Assembly: GCA_007376285.1 (NCBI GenBank)
Contig: VMFZ01000003.1
Location: 1 to 44,289 of the forward strand
DNA: 44,289 nt
Reading direction: 5' to 3'
Origin: Parcubacteria group bacterium Gr01-1014_17
GTDB lineage: Bacteria; Patescibacteriota; Minisyncoccia; Phycocordibacterales; UBA10002
The position numbers and the translations under genes were made by a program. The notes under the pieces are model-generated. The model did no database searches and was not told the DNA's origin. It saw only the letters and a list, made by a program, of their open reading frames with translations. Below, piece by piece: positions 14,577 through 44,289 of this stretch (the stretch's first letter is position 1; the number at the start of each line of letters is the position of its first letter).

Positions 14577-14645
14577 GCGCACCGAAAATTTCGTATCGCG
14601 TAGGACCCCGTAGAGAGGGTAAAGCGGACGAAATTTTCGGTGCGC
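14577..14645. repeat. palindromic element copy 1 (conserved loop, 17-bp arms)
   Basis: GCGCACCGAAAATTTCG / CGAAATTTTCGGTGCGC; loop nearly identical to 29782-29853 copy. Confidence 0.9.
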
Positions 14646-18572: not shown

Positions 18573-20981
18573 TTATATTTCTTTCATCTCCCCCCAATTT
18601 TCGCCCACACTCGCGCCGACAACAATCGGCACGCCACGGGACTGTTCCAAAGAGAGCACGCTTTCCATAATGTGTTTTATTTTCGCCGCTAAGTTTTTTA
18701 CCGATTCTTTTTTCACTTCATACACGAGTTCATCGTGCACTTGCAGAATCAACGACGCGTCTTTTTCCAATTTTTTCATTCGCAAAAACTCATCAACCTT
18801 CACCATTGCGAGTTTTATAATATCAGCCGTCGCGGTACCTTGAATCGGCGCATTAATGACTTGCCGTTCTGCCGCCGCGCGGATATACGGAATTGGAGAG
18901 TTGAGCGCCTCAAAATACCGCCGTCGGCCAAAGAGTGTTTCAGTGTATCCGCGCTCGCGCGCGGCGGTCTTCGTATTTTCAAGATACGCGGCAAGCATGG
19001 GAAAGCGCGCAAAATATTCGTTCAAGTATTTCTGCGCATTTTCTCGCGACACCATGGTGCCACCATCAGAAAGAACTTGCCGCAGGGCATTTACTCCCAT
19101 ACCATACAAAATTCCGAAGTTAATCACCTTCGCTTGCCGACGCATTTCTTTTGTTACATTTTCTGAGAGCACACCAAATACTTCTGCCGCAACCGCCGTA
19201 TGCACATCGGTTCCCTTTTTGAAAATCTCTACAAGCTTCGGGTCGCCCGAGAGTATTGCTGCAACGCGAAGCTCAATCTGTGAATAATCAAACGCGAGCA
19301 ATACAAACCCCTTTTCCGCAACAAACGCATTTCGTATGCGTTGTCCGCGCTTTGTCTGAACTGGGATATTCTGCATATTCGGATTCTGCGACGACATACG
19401 CCCAGTCGTCGCTCCTGCCTGCAAAAAATTGGCGTGCAAACGGCCGTCTGCAGCGACCAAAACGGGAATCGTATCAATGTATGTTGAAAGCAGTTTCTGA
19501 AACTCACGATACTCCAAAATTTTCCCGATAATCGGGTGCAGTTCGCGCATTTTTTCCAATTCGCTTTCGCGTGTTGAAAGCGCGCCGCCAGCGGTCTTCT
19601 TTTGCCGCGACGGCTTAAGTTGGAGCTTATTGAAAATAATCTCGCCGAGTTGTTTTGGAGAATTGATATTAAACTCGCCATCAGCCAATTTCCAAATTGC
19701 TTTCTCAAGCGCAGACAACTCTTTGTGGTATTCCAAAGAAAGCGCCGCAAGATATTTAACATCTATCGCAACGCCGTGCTCGTTCATTTTTTCTACGATC
19801 GGAATTAATGGTTTCTCAATTTCTTCAAAAACGCGTGTAAGCTGACGCGTTTTAAGCTCCGCAAAAATCTTTGCGCGCGTGAGTCCAACATCTTTCGTTT
19901 CCGCAAAATTAAAAATATCATCCGTAGTCGGACTGGTGAGGTTTGAGTTGATAAGCCAGAGCGCCACCGCCAACTCAGCAACATCCCTCCCTCCGACTGT
20001 CGTCGGAGTACTCCCCTCAAGGGGAGATTTCTGCAATCCCCCTTTGAAGGGGGTGTCTCCCGTAGGGAGACTGGGGATGTTGATTGCCCCCCTCAACCTC
20101 TGTCCAAGATTCCTAAATTCTAATTCACCGAACAAGCGTTCCGCCTTTTCCACATCAACCCGCGCGCGCCACGGCGTCTCCGGAAGCGAGAAGCTAATTG
20201 GCGCATCACGCCGAATCGTTCCTAAAATTTTGCTAAACTCTGCATCTTCTTTTCCTGCTTCCAAAAGCCCGATAATGCGTGGCTTTATCCCTTCTTTTTC
20301 AAAAGCACCATTGTCTTTCTTTAATTTTTTATATATTTCCTCAACAGAACCAAACTTTTGTATGAGTTCCGTCGCTATTTTGTCTCCTATACCCTTGATT
20401 CCTTTTATATTATCCGACGGGTCGCCTTTCAATCCCTTAAAATCCGGCAAAAGTTCCGGACCAAATCCATATCGCTCTTTTACTTTTTCCTCGTCGTACA
20501 AAATCGTGTCGTTAATTCCTCTTTTAAGTGTATAAACTTGAACGCGCCTGTCGTCCACTAATTGCAGGGTATCCATATCTCCCGACGCAATAACAATATC
20601 TTCATTTTTTACTTGCCCAACAATCGTGCCGAGAATATCATCCGCCTCAAACCCTTCCTTGTCGTACATTGGAATTGCAAACGCCTCAAAAACATCGCGC
20701 GAACGCTTCATTTGCGCAACGAGCGCATCGTCAGTTTTCGCCCGTCCCGCTTTGTATTCCTTGTATGCCTCGTGCCTAAATGTTGGCTTCGGTAGGTCGT
20801 ATGCCGCCGCAAGATAATCAGGTTTTAAATCAGCAATAATCTTTATTAGCATTGCTGCAAGGCCGTAAAGCGCGCCTGTCGGTTCGCCTTTGCTATTGCT
20901 AAACTCAGGCAACGCATGATACGCGCGATGCAATATCGCGTGCGCGTCAATCAATACGAGGCGTTTTGCTTGCTCTGCCAT
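18573..20981 (-). CDS. polA: DNA polymerase I with 5'-3' exonuclease and polymerase domains, repeat-derived insert in the linker
   Basis: LVLIDAHAILHRAYHALPEF, FDYSQIELRVAA, RRQAKVINFGILYGMG, LQVHDELVYEV. Confidence 0.97.
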   Translation of the reverse strand: MAEQAKRLVLIDAHAILHRAYHALPEFSNSKGEPTGALYGLAAMLIKIIADLKPDYLAAAYDLPKPTFRHEAYKEYKAGRAKTDDALVAQMKRSRDVFEAFAIPMYDKEGFEADDILGTIVGQVKNEDIVIASGDMDTLQLVDDRRVQVYTLKRGINDTILYDEEKVKERYGFGPELLPDFKGLKGDPSDNIKGIKGIGDKIATELIQKFGSVEEIYKKLKKDNGAFEKEGIKPRIIGLLEAGKEDAEFSKILGTIRRDAPISFSLPETPWRARVDVEKAERLFGELEFRNLGQRLRGAINIPSLPTGDTPFKGGLQKSPLEGSTPTTVGGRDVAELAVALWLINSNLTSPTTDDIFNFAETKDVGLTRAKIFAELKTRQLTRVFEEIEKPLIPIVEKMNEHGVAIDVKYLAALSLEYHKELSALEKAIWKLADGEFNINSPKQLGEIIFNKLQLKPSRQKKTAGGALSTRESELEKMRELHPIIGKILEYREFQKLLSTYIDTIPVLVAADGRLHANFLQAGATTGRMSSQNPNMQNIPVQTKRGQRIRNAFVAEKGFVLLAFDYSQIELRVAAILSGDPKLVEIFKKGTDVHTAVAAEVFGVLSENVTKEMRRQAKVINFGILYGMGVNALRQVLSDGGTMVSRENAQKYLNEYFARFPMLAAYLENTKTAARERGYTETLFGRRRYFEALNSPIPYIRAAAERQVINAPIQGTATADIIKLAMVKVDEFLRMKKLEKDASLILQVHDELVYEVKKESVKNLAAKIKHIMESVLSLEQSRGVPIVVGASVGENWGEMKEI
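19981..20080. repeat. family-A multi-hairpin repeat, in frame inside polA
   Basis: ACATCCC...GGGGATGT ends, nested CTCCGAC/GTCGGAG, TCCCCT/AGGGGA, CCCCCTT/AAGGGGG, TCTCCC/GGGAGA; 100 nt, near-identical to 44036-44135. Confidence 0.95.
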
Positions 20982-20985
20982 AGTC

Positions 20986-21429
20986 CTATTCTAGCGCAAT
21001 TTTCCGCGTCGTATCATCTACGAATTCAAAATAGAGTTTGGCGTGAGCGGGCAGCAAAATGTCGGATACGCGGTCAGCCCATTCTATGAGAATGAGATTC
21101 TTTGAGTCGCCAACGAGTGCGTCCCAGCCGAGCTTTTTCAAATCTTCTCCGTTGTCCAAGCGATAAGCATCTATATGTACTAATGTATCAAAATTTTTAA
21201 TTTTTAATTTATAATTTTTAATTATTACGAAAGTAGGACTTTGCACGGAGCCGTGAACGCCGAGGATTTTTGCAACTTGCTGGACAAACGATGTCTTTCC
21301 GGAACCCAAATCGCCGTACAATCCGACAACGGTCGCTTGCCCCAAGCTCAATCGAGGGGAAAGACCAACAAGAAACTCTTGCGCAAATTGTGCGGTGTCG
21401 TCAATGCTTTTGCTGATTGTTTCTTTCAT
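20986..21429 (-). CDS. tsaE: tRNA threonylcarbamoyladenosine biosynthesis ATPase TsaE
   Basis: GLYGDLGSGKTSFVQ, SPTFVIIKNY, VHIDAYRL, EWADRV. Confidence 0.93.
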   Translation of the reverse strand: MKETISKSIDDTAQFAQEFLVGLSPRLSLGQATVVGLYGDLGSGKTSFVQQVAKILGVHGSVQSPTFVIIKNYKLKIKNFDTLVHIDAYRLDNGEDLKKLGWDALVGDSKNLILIEWADRVSDILLPAHAKLYFEFVDDTTRKIALE

Positions 21430-21436
21430 AAAAAGA

Positions 21437-21528
21437 ACATCCTCCGCCCTTCGGGCACCTCCCTCAAGGGAGGATTTTCCGAATTCCCCCTTTTAAGGGG
21501 GTGTCTCCCGTAGGGAGACGGGGGATGT
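21437..21528. repeat. family-A multi-hairpin repeat, intergenic
   Basis: ACATCC...GGGGGATGT; shares CCCCCTT-TTAAGGGGGTGTCTCCCGTAGGGAGACGGGGGATGT with the coding copies. Confidence 0.92.
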
Positions 21529-22437: not shown

Positions 22438-22503
22438 GCACCAGATGTTTGAAGCCGTCCCACCTCATCGGCGGGTCGCCGAAGAGGCGACAACATCTGG
22501 TGC
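22438..22503. repeat. inverted repeat GCACCAGATGTT/AACATCTGGTGC enclosing a CCTCATCGGCG-type hairpin
   Basis: 12-bp perfect arms, same arm as 541-579. Confidence 0.85.
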
Positions 22504-24319: not shown

Positions 24320-24398
24320 ATACATTAGAAAACAAAAAAGACATATAGGGCAGTGGCGCGTAAAAACAAAACAGGTAGATTTGAAACAGGAAAAGATT

Positions 24399-24431
24399 TG
24401 TCGCCTCATCGGCGACCCGCCGAAGAGGCGG
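24399..24431. repeat. TCGCCTCATCGGCGACCCGCCGAAGAGGCG palindromic repeat
   Basis: Near-identical core at 22462-22490 and in PrgI gene around 43566-43590. Confidence 0.75.
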
Positions 24432-24449
24432 GAAACTAGAATTCCAGAA

Positions 24450-29781: not shown

Positions 29782-29853
29782 GCGGAAAGCGAAATTTTGT
29801 CCCCTTTACCCTCTCTACGGGGGTCCTACGGGATACAAAATTTCGCTTTCCGC
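29782..29853. repeat. palindromic element copy 2 (conserved loop, 18-bp arms)
   Basis: GCGGAAAGCGAAATTTTG / CAAAATTTCGCTTTCCGC; loop is reverse-complement match to 14594-14628. Confidence 0.9.
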
Positions 29854-39603: not shown

Positions 39604-40656
39604 TTAAAAACTAATTGTTGTTTTTGCATCCCCAAACTGAAACATCGCTTTCGGGTTGGTTACTTCAACTCGTACACCCGCGCTCCCTTCCGCATTTTCT
39701 TTGCGAAACACAACGCTATTGTCCGACGGCGAGCCGACCTTCTGGCTGTTCAGTGTCCAGTTGTATTTCAAAAGCCCCGCATCTGCTTTGTTGAAAAAGA
39801 ACGGCTGCGCAACGACGCGGATTTCAGGCGCTTTCAGCGCTGTGTCTTTTGCAAGTGCTTTGTTCCAAAGCGCTCCGTAGAGTGGATGGTCTTCGTACAA
39901 CACAACCGCTGGCGCAAGCGCCTCGGCGGTAATTCGTGCCTCGGCAACTGCGCTTCCGTCTGGCGACTCAACTTCCACCGTTATTTCCGTAGGTCGAAAT
40001 GGAACTTTCGCGTAAAACGAAAAGGTGTCGCGCCCGACTCCGGACGAACCCTCCGGTACGCGGTCGGCAATTTTCCATTTATAGGAAAGGGTCTTCGGGT
40101 TCGCGCGTGCGCTAGGTGCGTTCCCGAAAAACGGGATTGCCACAATGCGCGTCGCGCCGTGATATGAAAAAAGCGTCTTGCCTCGGTAAAATGGCGGCGC
40201 GGTGCCGTCCGACTCGGCAACGAGCAGTACTGACGCCGGCGAGAGGTTTATTGTTTTTTCTACAATTTCGCCTGCTTCAGAAAGTTTAACAGTCAGCACT
40301 GTTTTTGAGCCGAGCTTTCCTGTACGGAACGATGCGCTTGTTTCCCCTTTCCCTTTCCGCACTGACACGCCGTTTACGAGCCATTGTATGTCTGTGGTTG
40401 CTCCATTTCCCCCGCTTAAAATAGAGAGCGTTGCGGTTACTAGTGTGTTCGGTGCTGGTTTTTCAGGCGAAAGCGTAATCAGTATCGCGTCTGGCGATGG
40501 CGGCAACGCGGCAAAAACGGGCGTTGTGAAGAATATACCTACCAACAGTAATACAAAAACAACATCCCCCCAACCCCCCTTCAAAGGGGGAGTTTCGGAA
40601 AATCCTCCCTTGAGGGAGGTGCCGAAGGCGGAGGATGTGTTTTGTTTTTTTTTCAT
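39604..40656 (-). CDS. secreted hypothetical protein whose N-terminus contains a family-A repeat
   Basis: MKKKQNTSSAFGTSLKGGFSETPPLKGGWGDVVFVLLLVGIFFTTPVFA. Confidence 0.65.
   Translation of the reverse strand: MKKKQNTSSAFGTSLKGGFSETPPLKGGWGDVVFVLLLVGIFFTTPVFAALPPSPDAILITLSPEKPAPNTLVTATLSILSGGNGATTDIQWLVNGVSVRKGKGETSASFRTGKLGSKTVLTVKLSEAGEIVEKTINLSPASVLLVAESDGTAPPFYRGKTLFSYHGATRIVAIPFFGNAPSARANPKTLSYKWKIADRVPEGSSGVGRDTFSFYAKVPFRPTEITVEVESPDGSAVAEARITAEALAPAVVLYEDHPLYGALWNKALAKDTALKAPEIRVVAQPFFFNKADAGLLKYNWTLNSQKVGSPSDNSVVFRKENAEGSAGVRVEVTNPKAMFQFGDAKTTISF
40562..40638. repeat. family-A-related repeat inside the signal-peptide region
   Basis: ACATCCCCCC...GAGGATGT with internal CCCCCTT/AAGGGGG and CCTCCCT/AGGGAGG hairpins. 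Confidence 0.9.
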
Positions 40657-43458: not shown

Positions 43459-43869
43459 CTATTTTCTGGTCGTCGTATGCGAGATATCCAGTGTCCATGT
43501 TAAATCGCGGAGTTTGCCCTCAGTCAATTTTGGAAATTCTAATGTCGTGGCGCGCTCGCCTTCTCGGTGAGTCGCCGATGAGGCGACTTTCGGGATTTTG
43601 CGCCACAGGTAGAGTTTTTCTGAAAAATAGTAGCGAATAGCAGATTCAAGGACGAATACAAACGGCTTTCCGTTTATTTTCCAAAATGCAAGCGCAAGCG
43701 AAAGCGCCACGACCGGTGCAATCACGAGAATTGCAATAAAAAAGGTTAGAAAGCGGTAGGCGATAAACGAAAGCCCCGCTCCGCCGACGAGGTACACGAA
43801 CTGCTTGACGGTCAGCGGTCCGAACAGTCGGTCTTCAATGTCTATAAATTGTGGCGTTTGATATTTCAT
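43459..43869 (-). CDS. PrgI-family membrane protein (T4SS) with repeat-derived insert
   Basis: YQTPQFIDIEDRLFGPLTVKQFVYLVGGAGLSFIAYR; insert VASSATHREGE. Confidence 0.8.
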   Translation of the reverse strand: MKYQTPQFIDIEDRLFGPLTVKQFVYLVGGAGLSFIAYRFLTFFIAILVIAPVVALSLALAFWKINGKPFVFVLESAIRYYFSEKLYLWRKIPKVASSATHREGERATTLEFPKLTEGKLRDLTWTLDISHTTTRK

Positions 43870-44289
43870 TTATTCAATTGGTTCGCGATATGGGTCAACG
43901 GAATATTTTTTTGCTTCCGACATCGGCGGTAGTTTTGCTTTTTGTTCTTCAAGTGCGGATGGTAGAAGTTTTGGTTCAACTGCGTTCACCACAGGTGGCG
44001 GAGAGGAAGGTTTTTCCTCACCAACTTTTTTTGACACATCCCTCCCTCCGCCTATCGGCGGAGTACTCCCCTCAAGGGGAGATTTCTGCAATCCCCCTTG
44101 GAAGGGGGTGTCTCCCGCAGGGAGACGGGGGATGTTTTCTGAATGTATCGGCGCAAATTTTAATTCTTCCTTTGGTTCCGCCGGTTGACTCATCTTCCTC
44201 AAAATTTCCCGCACTGGCCGAAACACTTCCATATTCACCGCCTGCCCAATCGCCATCGTCTTATCGCGCGGAAGTTTTAATCGGCGCGT
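43870..44289 (-). CDS. T4SS-locus hypothetical protein, frame open to the right edge, with in-frame family-A repeat
   Basis: Frame is open upstream of the first ATG (TRRLKLPRDKT-MAIGQAVNMEVFRPVREILRKM); contains NIPRLPAGDTPFQGGLQKSPLEGSTPPIGGGRDV. Confidence 0.6.
   Translation of the reverse strand, partial: TRRLKLPRDKTMAIGQAVNMEVFRPVREILRKMSQPAEPKEELKFAPIHSENIPRLPAGDTPFQGGLQKSPLEGSTPPIGGGRDVSKKVGEEKPSSPPPVVNAVEPKLLPSALEEQKAKLPPMSEAKKYSVDPYREPIE
44036..44135. repeat. family-A multi-hairpin repeat, in frame in the 43870 CDS
   Basis: 100 nt, ACATCCC...GGGGATGT, near-identical to 19981-20080. Confidence 0.95.

Follow-up and report, generated by a model that had tools for sequence, protein, structure and literature searches.

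A palindromic repeat residing in frame in polA of a Parcubacteria genome and its likely link to a DUF559 nuclease gene

The window analyzed here, a stretch of 44,289 nucleotides, is one contig (C17) of a Taylorbacteria-type (Parcubacteria) genome of 610,266 bases that is 96% complete (G000 in the following). On its minus strand, an open reading frame at positions 18573-20981 encodes DNA polymerase I (polA, 802 aa), and within this gene lies a palindromic element of 100 nt. This locus raises the question what kind of sequence the element is and how it came to reside in polA. The protein matches the Pfam families DNA_pol_A (1.6e-137), 5_3_exonuc_N and 5_3_exonuc. The element (positions 19981-20080, minus strand ACATCCCC...GGAGGGATGT) has the ends ACATCCC and GGGGATGT, is read in frame as (N)IPSLPTGDTPFKGGLQKSPLEGSTPTTVGGRD(V) and contributes 34 residues (NIPSLPTGDTPFKGGLQKSPLEGSTPTTVGGRDV) to the PolA linker. 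The insert corresponds to approximately residues 303-336 in the numbering of the 805-codon open frame and lies between the 5'-3' exonuclease match (10-275) and the DNA_pol_A match (412-801). The insert (301-330) was unstructured in an AlphaFold model of PolA; since this model was poor overall (mean pLDDT 63), we consider this weak evidence.

The element has five conserved stems, namely a 7-bp outer stem enclosing four serial hairpins. The arms of the outer stem, ACATCCC at 19981-19987 and GGGATGT at 20074-20080, pair with each other and form terminal inverted repeats; in an alignment of 11 copies, 98.7% of the cells of this stem were paired, and it was present in 11/11 copies with a single unpaired cell. 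The left or alpha half (19981-20029, plus strand, 58 bits with nhmmer) comprises the tag ACATCCCTCC followed by the hairpins hp1 (19991-20008) and hp2 (CTCCCC TCAA GGGGAG, 20011-20026, 97% of cells paired). The right or beta half (20035-20080, minus strand, 48 bits with nhmmer) comprises the tag ACATCCCC and the hairpins hp1' (20055-20071) and hp2' (CCCCC TTTGAA GGGGG, 20038-20053, 100% of cells paired). In hp1 and hp1', the stem letters differed among copies with retention of pairing, including replacements of whole stems, and compensatory changes were found in 2/7 and 3/7 pairs, respectively. Over the 11 aligned copies, 94.7% of the cells paired compared to 45-60% when the partners were slid, and 12 cells were doubly changed compared to a mean of 3.9 after shuffling. 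The folding z-score of the 100-nt strand was about -5.7 for the polA copy and -7.0 for a second copy at 44036, and 0/200 shuffles were as good. A match of the polA element to Rfam was not found. An earlier inspection of the letters only (the sequence-only reading) had placed a 100-nt unit with these ends between the exonuclease and polymerase domains, which held, and had described four nested hairpins, which did not, as the hairpins lie side by side inside the 7-bp outer stem.

The second alpha/beta copy (approximately 44036-44136, minus strand) lies in frame in the gene at 43870-44289, which is conserved on either side of the insert in relatives. At the DNA level it is 94% identical to the polA copy and it is read in the same frame, yielding peptides with 28/34 identical residues, as had been claimed before. 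The earlier claim of two copies has to be extended, as the window contains two more and the genome about 25. One of the two is an intergenic gamma/beta member (21437-21528, plus strand), which adjoins a 147-aa ORF (20986-21429) and whose site is nearly empty in a related genome, G004. The other is a gamma/delta member (40562-40638, minus strand) located in frame near the N-terminus of the ORF at 39604-40656; it is missing at the same place in two relatives.

A DNA search of G000 gave 26 places matching the polA element, and a rescan of all 610 kb by pattern and profile gave about 25 dispersed elements. They share an architecture in which a left half of type alpha or gamma is combined with an inverted right half of type beta or delta, with the ACATCC tags pointing outward; a few members are lone halves. 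The ends are sharp and read ACATCC/GGATGT in nearly all copies, with neither a GTAG nor a CGTC tag, and no target-site duplication was visible by eye in the 26 copies. About 13 of the 25 copies are located outside of genes compared to an open-frame content of about 87% of the genome, indicating a preference for extragenic positions. For the family, the sequences of G000 and G004 were read as a whole and that of the sister genome G010 for the most part. DNA matches across 13 genomes of the genus numbered 26 in G000, 11 in G004, three in G010, two in G011 and one in G002. When 85,462 species genomes, from which the records closest to the window's own genome may have been excluded, were scanned by pattern, the alpha half was detected only in Candidatus Taylorbacteria RIFCSPLOWO2_01_FULL_48_100 (G004). 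The window also contains three copies of a second palindromic repeat of the CGCCTCATCGGCGACCCGCCGAAGAGGCG type at 43556-43587 (inside a 136-aa ORF, 43459-43869), 22458-22493 and 24398-24433, and inverted copies of CCCCGTAGAGAGGGTAAAGCGGACGAAATTT at 14606-14636 and 29792-29822. A CCCCGTAGAGAGGGTAAAGCGGACGAAATTT-like stretch is found in the PfkB gene of G010, where G000 has an ACATCC element.

Twelve copies lie in frame within open frames whose parts before and after the insert are both conserved in relatives. Based on Pfam domains, from which all host gene names were inferred, the hosts are polA, leuS, argS, murB and genes for a UvrD/PD-(D/E)XK protein (UvrD-type helicase), a PfkB kinase, a ribulose-phosphate epimerase, a Wzy/TPR protein, a peptidoglycan-binding protein and an LTD/PKD protein, with 2/12 having no family match. 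The inserts are located between domains in PolA, LeuS and the UvrD protein and within a domain match in ArgS, MurB, PfkB and the epimerase. Copies are read in both orientations and in several frames (including +0, -2, -0 and -1), which shows that the mobile unit is DNA and not a peptide domain; the latter reading is ruled out by the usage of frames and strands. The earlier statement of a common orientation and frame held for the polA/44036 pair and for 4/5 of the full alpha/beta copies located in genes but not across the family, and the frame common to these four is among the few that are usually stop-free. Very likely, we are thus dealing with a dispersed palindromic element that is translated in frame, translation itself being inferred from the open frames. 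A bacterium with a minimal genome would then carry translated selfish DNA in polA, leuS, argS and murB simultaneously.

The flanks of the insertion sites were aligned with G004 and G010, where each site held a member of the same family, another palindrome or no hairpin at all. These outcomes were sorted by eye, and with DNA identities of about 80% between species, the exact insertion junction could not be resolved. Most PolA homologs of the genus do not have the peptide, and their linker varies from species to species. The polA gene is present in G010 as two partial copies, of which only one has the element; they are about 86-91% identical outside of it and for this reason probably stem from two strains or species that were binned together. 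In-frame hairpin repeats of different families were present in the PolA linker of G000, G010, G004, G008, G007, G009 and G002. The PolA linker is a sink for repeats, and the families of palindromes that fill it differ between sister species. Together with the results above, the dispersed family, its residence in frame, the empty sites and the conserved fold are established. A second site in polA, located in an exonuclease loop, has in-frame inserts in G002, G003, G009 and G012 (loci L055, L051, L053 and L052, respectively); they encode LDSRLRGND-type peptides and derive from a ATTCCCGC...GCGGGAAT repeat. This repeat resembles known REP-type repeats.

A 120-codon open frame on another contig (G000:C7:2780-3139) encodes a DUF559 protein and is flanked by alpha/gamma halves on one side and by a beta half on the other side, with the tags outward. 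G004 has a homolog with 80% identity and the same layout at a different locus, and the site that holds the cassette in G000 has nothing comparable in G004 and G010. The cassette of G000 had been missed in an automated count of genes between halves because one half was too diverged for the profile. The protein scored 108 bits against PF04480 (cut-off 20.6), matched PDB entry 3HRL (6.8e-14) and, weakly, I-Bth0305I by sequence, and its model (pLDDT 88) matched the folds of 3hrl (E 2.6e-6) and 3r3p (E 1.9e-4). Residues E26, D55, E66, D68 and H72 were invariant in 32 homologs. By family and fold, DUF559 is a small nuclease of the Vsr/EDxHD type and not a known transposase; that it nicks or cuts its own repeats is an inference.

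The alpha half in polA (19981-20029) is identical in 46/49 nt to the half beside the DUF559 gene on C7. In general, the PolA-linker inserts matched the DUF559 flanks of their own genome (mean 22.4; examples are this one and 45/47 nt in G002) better than those of other genomes (11.9; permutation p = 0.0002), with the reservation that the permutation treats related genomes as independent. The tags point outward in G000 and G004 and face the DUF559 gene in most other species of the genus; the unit that carries the gene therefore has no uniform layout. The family reaches its highest copy numbers in the genomes with this DUF559 subtype, of which there are only two. G010 has inserts, and DUF559 was not found in its 94%-complete assembly. 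At three loci (L215, L228 and L217), the DUF559 open frame extends into the downstream hairpin, giving a C-terminal tail encoded by the repeat.

When inspected by eye, each of the 14 full-length DUF559 loci in the genus had hairpin halves near both sides. In a blind score, inverted flank repeats exceeded all local controls at 12/14 DUF559 loci of the genus, at 19/30 of the phylum and at 9/12 on plasmids from other phyla (Cyanobacteria, Alphaproteobacteria, Deinococcus), compared to 2/14 Y1_Tnp loci from the genus. Both flanks had strong hairpins at 5/14, 22/30 and 5/12 of these DUF559 loci, respectively, and at 1/14 Y1_Tnp loci, with a background of 4.6% of windows. As the phylum sample comprised only the 30 best-scoring loci and the local controls included coding windows, the rates describe these sets. 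A flank half of a Sphingomonas DUF559 gene was dispersed over 85 places in 20 plasmid records. In a Sphingomonas parapaucimobilis plasmid (L273), a DUF559 gene with hairpins lies between the genes for NAD(P) transhydrogenase subunits in one operon. We have little doubt that the association of DUF559 with flanking repeats is non-random. No report of it was found in the literature searched, which did not cover preprints and most subscription papers. The DUF559 partner is what appears to be new here; in-frame palindromes in genes including that of DNA polymerase I were already known.

In our preferred reading, which we consider likely (probability about 0.66), the insert in polA belongs to the REP-like palindromic elements, is non-autonomous and is mobilized with the help of DUF559, the enzymology being inferred. 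It would be a REP/BIME-like unit of two hairpin halves (alpha/gamma left, beta/delta right) with ACATCCyCC tags outward, belonging to a family related to a small cassette in which a DUF559 nuclease gene lies between the same two halves. DUF559 may recognize the folded ends of the element that encodes it, as well as those of gene-less copies in trans, and nick them, after which repair or single-strand reinsertion would copy the ends elsewhere without target-site duplication. For DUF559 as the mobilizer of the halves, the balance of evidence tips only slightly in favor, and there are no data on nicking, transposition or excision. The element may have entered polA once, in an ancestor of G000 and one sister or by transfer, at the disordered inter-domain linker. 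It would persist there because, by chance, its orientation and phase contain no stop codon and leave the frame intact, and it would be translated as a passive linker peptide, whose neutrality is inferred like the nicking and copying. A bolder reading, which we consider slightly less likely than not, is that DUF559 with flanking hairpins represents a pan-bacterial mobile class in which a nuclease of the Vsr/EDxHD type replaces the transposase. If so, many orphan GC-rich palindromic repeats, including those in frame in essential genes, would be miniature derivatives. Several palindromic repeat families have no known mobilizer, and a nuclease partner with defined ends makes their movement testable.

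The sequence-only reading had already proposed a selfish palindromic element tolerated as a peptide in the mode of the Rickettsia palindromic elements (RPE), which is supported, without sequence relation to these, which is consistent at the end tag (CGTC is missing) and rests on a comparison of tags only. It would have been refuted by PolA homologs carrying the peptide universally or by a lack of homology between the units at genome scale; neither was the case, as the alignment showed the peptide to be absent from most relatives, and the homology held in the DNA search and the pattern and profile rescans. It had missed that intragenic in-frame REPs, including those in DNA polymerase I, were already described (PMC3733652), that the left and right halves are separable and also flank DUF559 nuclease genes, and that different palindromic families occupy the same PolA linker in different species.

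Of the alternatives, an ordinary REP/REPIN family moved in trans by a Y1 (RAYT/IS200-like) tyrosine transposase would fit the hairpin-doublet architecture and the length of about 100 nt (PMC3116915), the occurrence of Y1_Tnp genes in 12/13 genomes of the genus and the failure to see a target-site duplication. However, no half of the family was detected near either of the two Y1 genes of G000, a reason to reject Y1/RAYT as the partner; flank repeats rarely exceeded the control at Y1 loci of the genus, and the GTAG tag is missing. We therefore regard this explanation as unlikely. ACATCSGATGT palindromes (G000:C8:2518, C11:7652 and C21:31985; G010:C36 near 5050), one of which lies directly upstream of a Y1_Tnp gene, were considered as a collapsed form of the element and rejected, as there are only three in the genome; their likeness to the tag may be coincidence. 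It remains possible that DUF559 is a homing gene that invaded pre-existing palindromic repeats spread by something else. DUF559 has the fold of a homing endonuclease, and its gene occupies the central spacer in some species and the tag junction in others, a pattern that insertions into repeat arrays should leave. Against this stand the match of PolA inserts to the DUF559 flanks of their own genome, although a homing gene invading local repeats would give the same, and the richness in copies of the genomes with this subtype, where n is only 2.

A conserved functional peptide module, kept in PolA and other proteins for its amino acid sequence, could explain the frame and peptide common to four full alpha/beta copies in genes. 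This is practically excluded, as further copies use the opposite strand or different frames, most PolA homologs have unrelated repeats in place of the peptide, and covariation is seen in the fold and not in the peptide. Host recombination, slippage or hairpin gene conversion at permissive linkers, without any dedicated enzyme, would account for different palindromic families at the same sites in relatives, as expected from hairpin conversion. We nevertheless consider it improbable in view of copies at sites that are hairpin-free in a relative, the sharp ends of the element and an association with DUF559 that spans phyla.

Compared to known systems, the DUF559 protein resembles the EDxHD homing endonuclease I-Bth0305I and Vsr in fold and sequence, EDxHD being a listed family of homing endonucleases (PMC6083498). 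Those are intron-borne or repair enzymes, for which flanking palindromic repeats are unreported in the literature searched. With REP, BIME and REPIN sequences, the family shares short GC-rich hairpins arranged as inverted pairs with a length of about 80-105 nt, doublets with conserved spacing, dispersal, a conserved fold and some intragenic copies. REPs inside genes, including those for DNA polymerase I, tRNA synthetases and repair proteins, have been reported together with RPE insertions (PMC3733652), and the REPIN architecture has been linked to RAYTs (PMC3116915). In contrast to these, our family has no GTAG tag, and its halves flank DUF559 genes and were not detected near the Y1 transposase genes of G000. 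Like RPE, it is palindromic and tolerated as peptides in frame in conserved protein genes (12 genes), but RPE end in a CGTC tag (PMC3733652), whereas the ends here are ACATCC...GGATGT. CGTC REPs were stated to have no dedicated transposase, and no partner gene was reported for CGTC repeats (PMC3733652). MITEs, finally, also have terminal inverted repeats and are gene-less copies of a gene-bearing element. Here, no target-site duplication was seen, and a parent-like DUF559 cassette with the same halves exists but encodes a Vsr/EDxHD nuclease fold and not a transposase.
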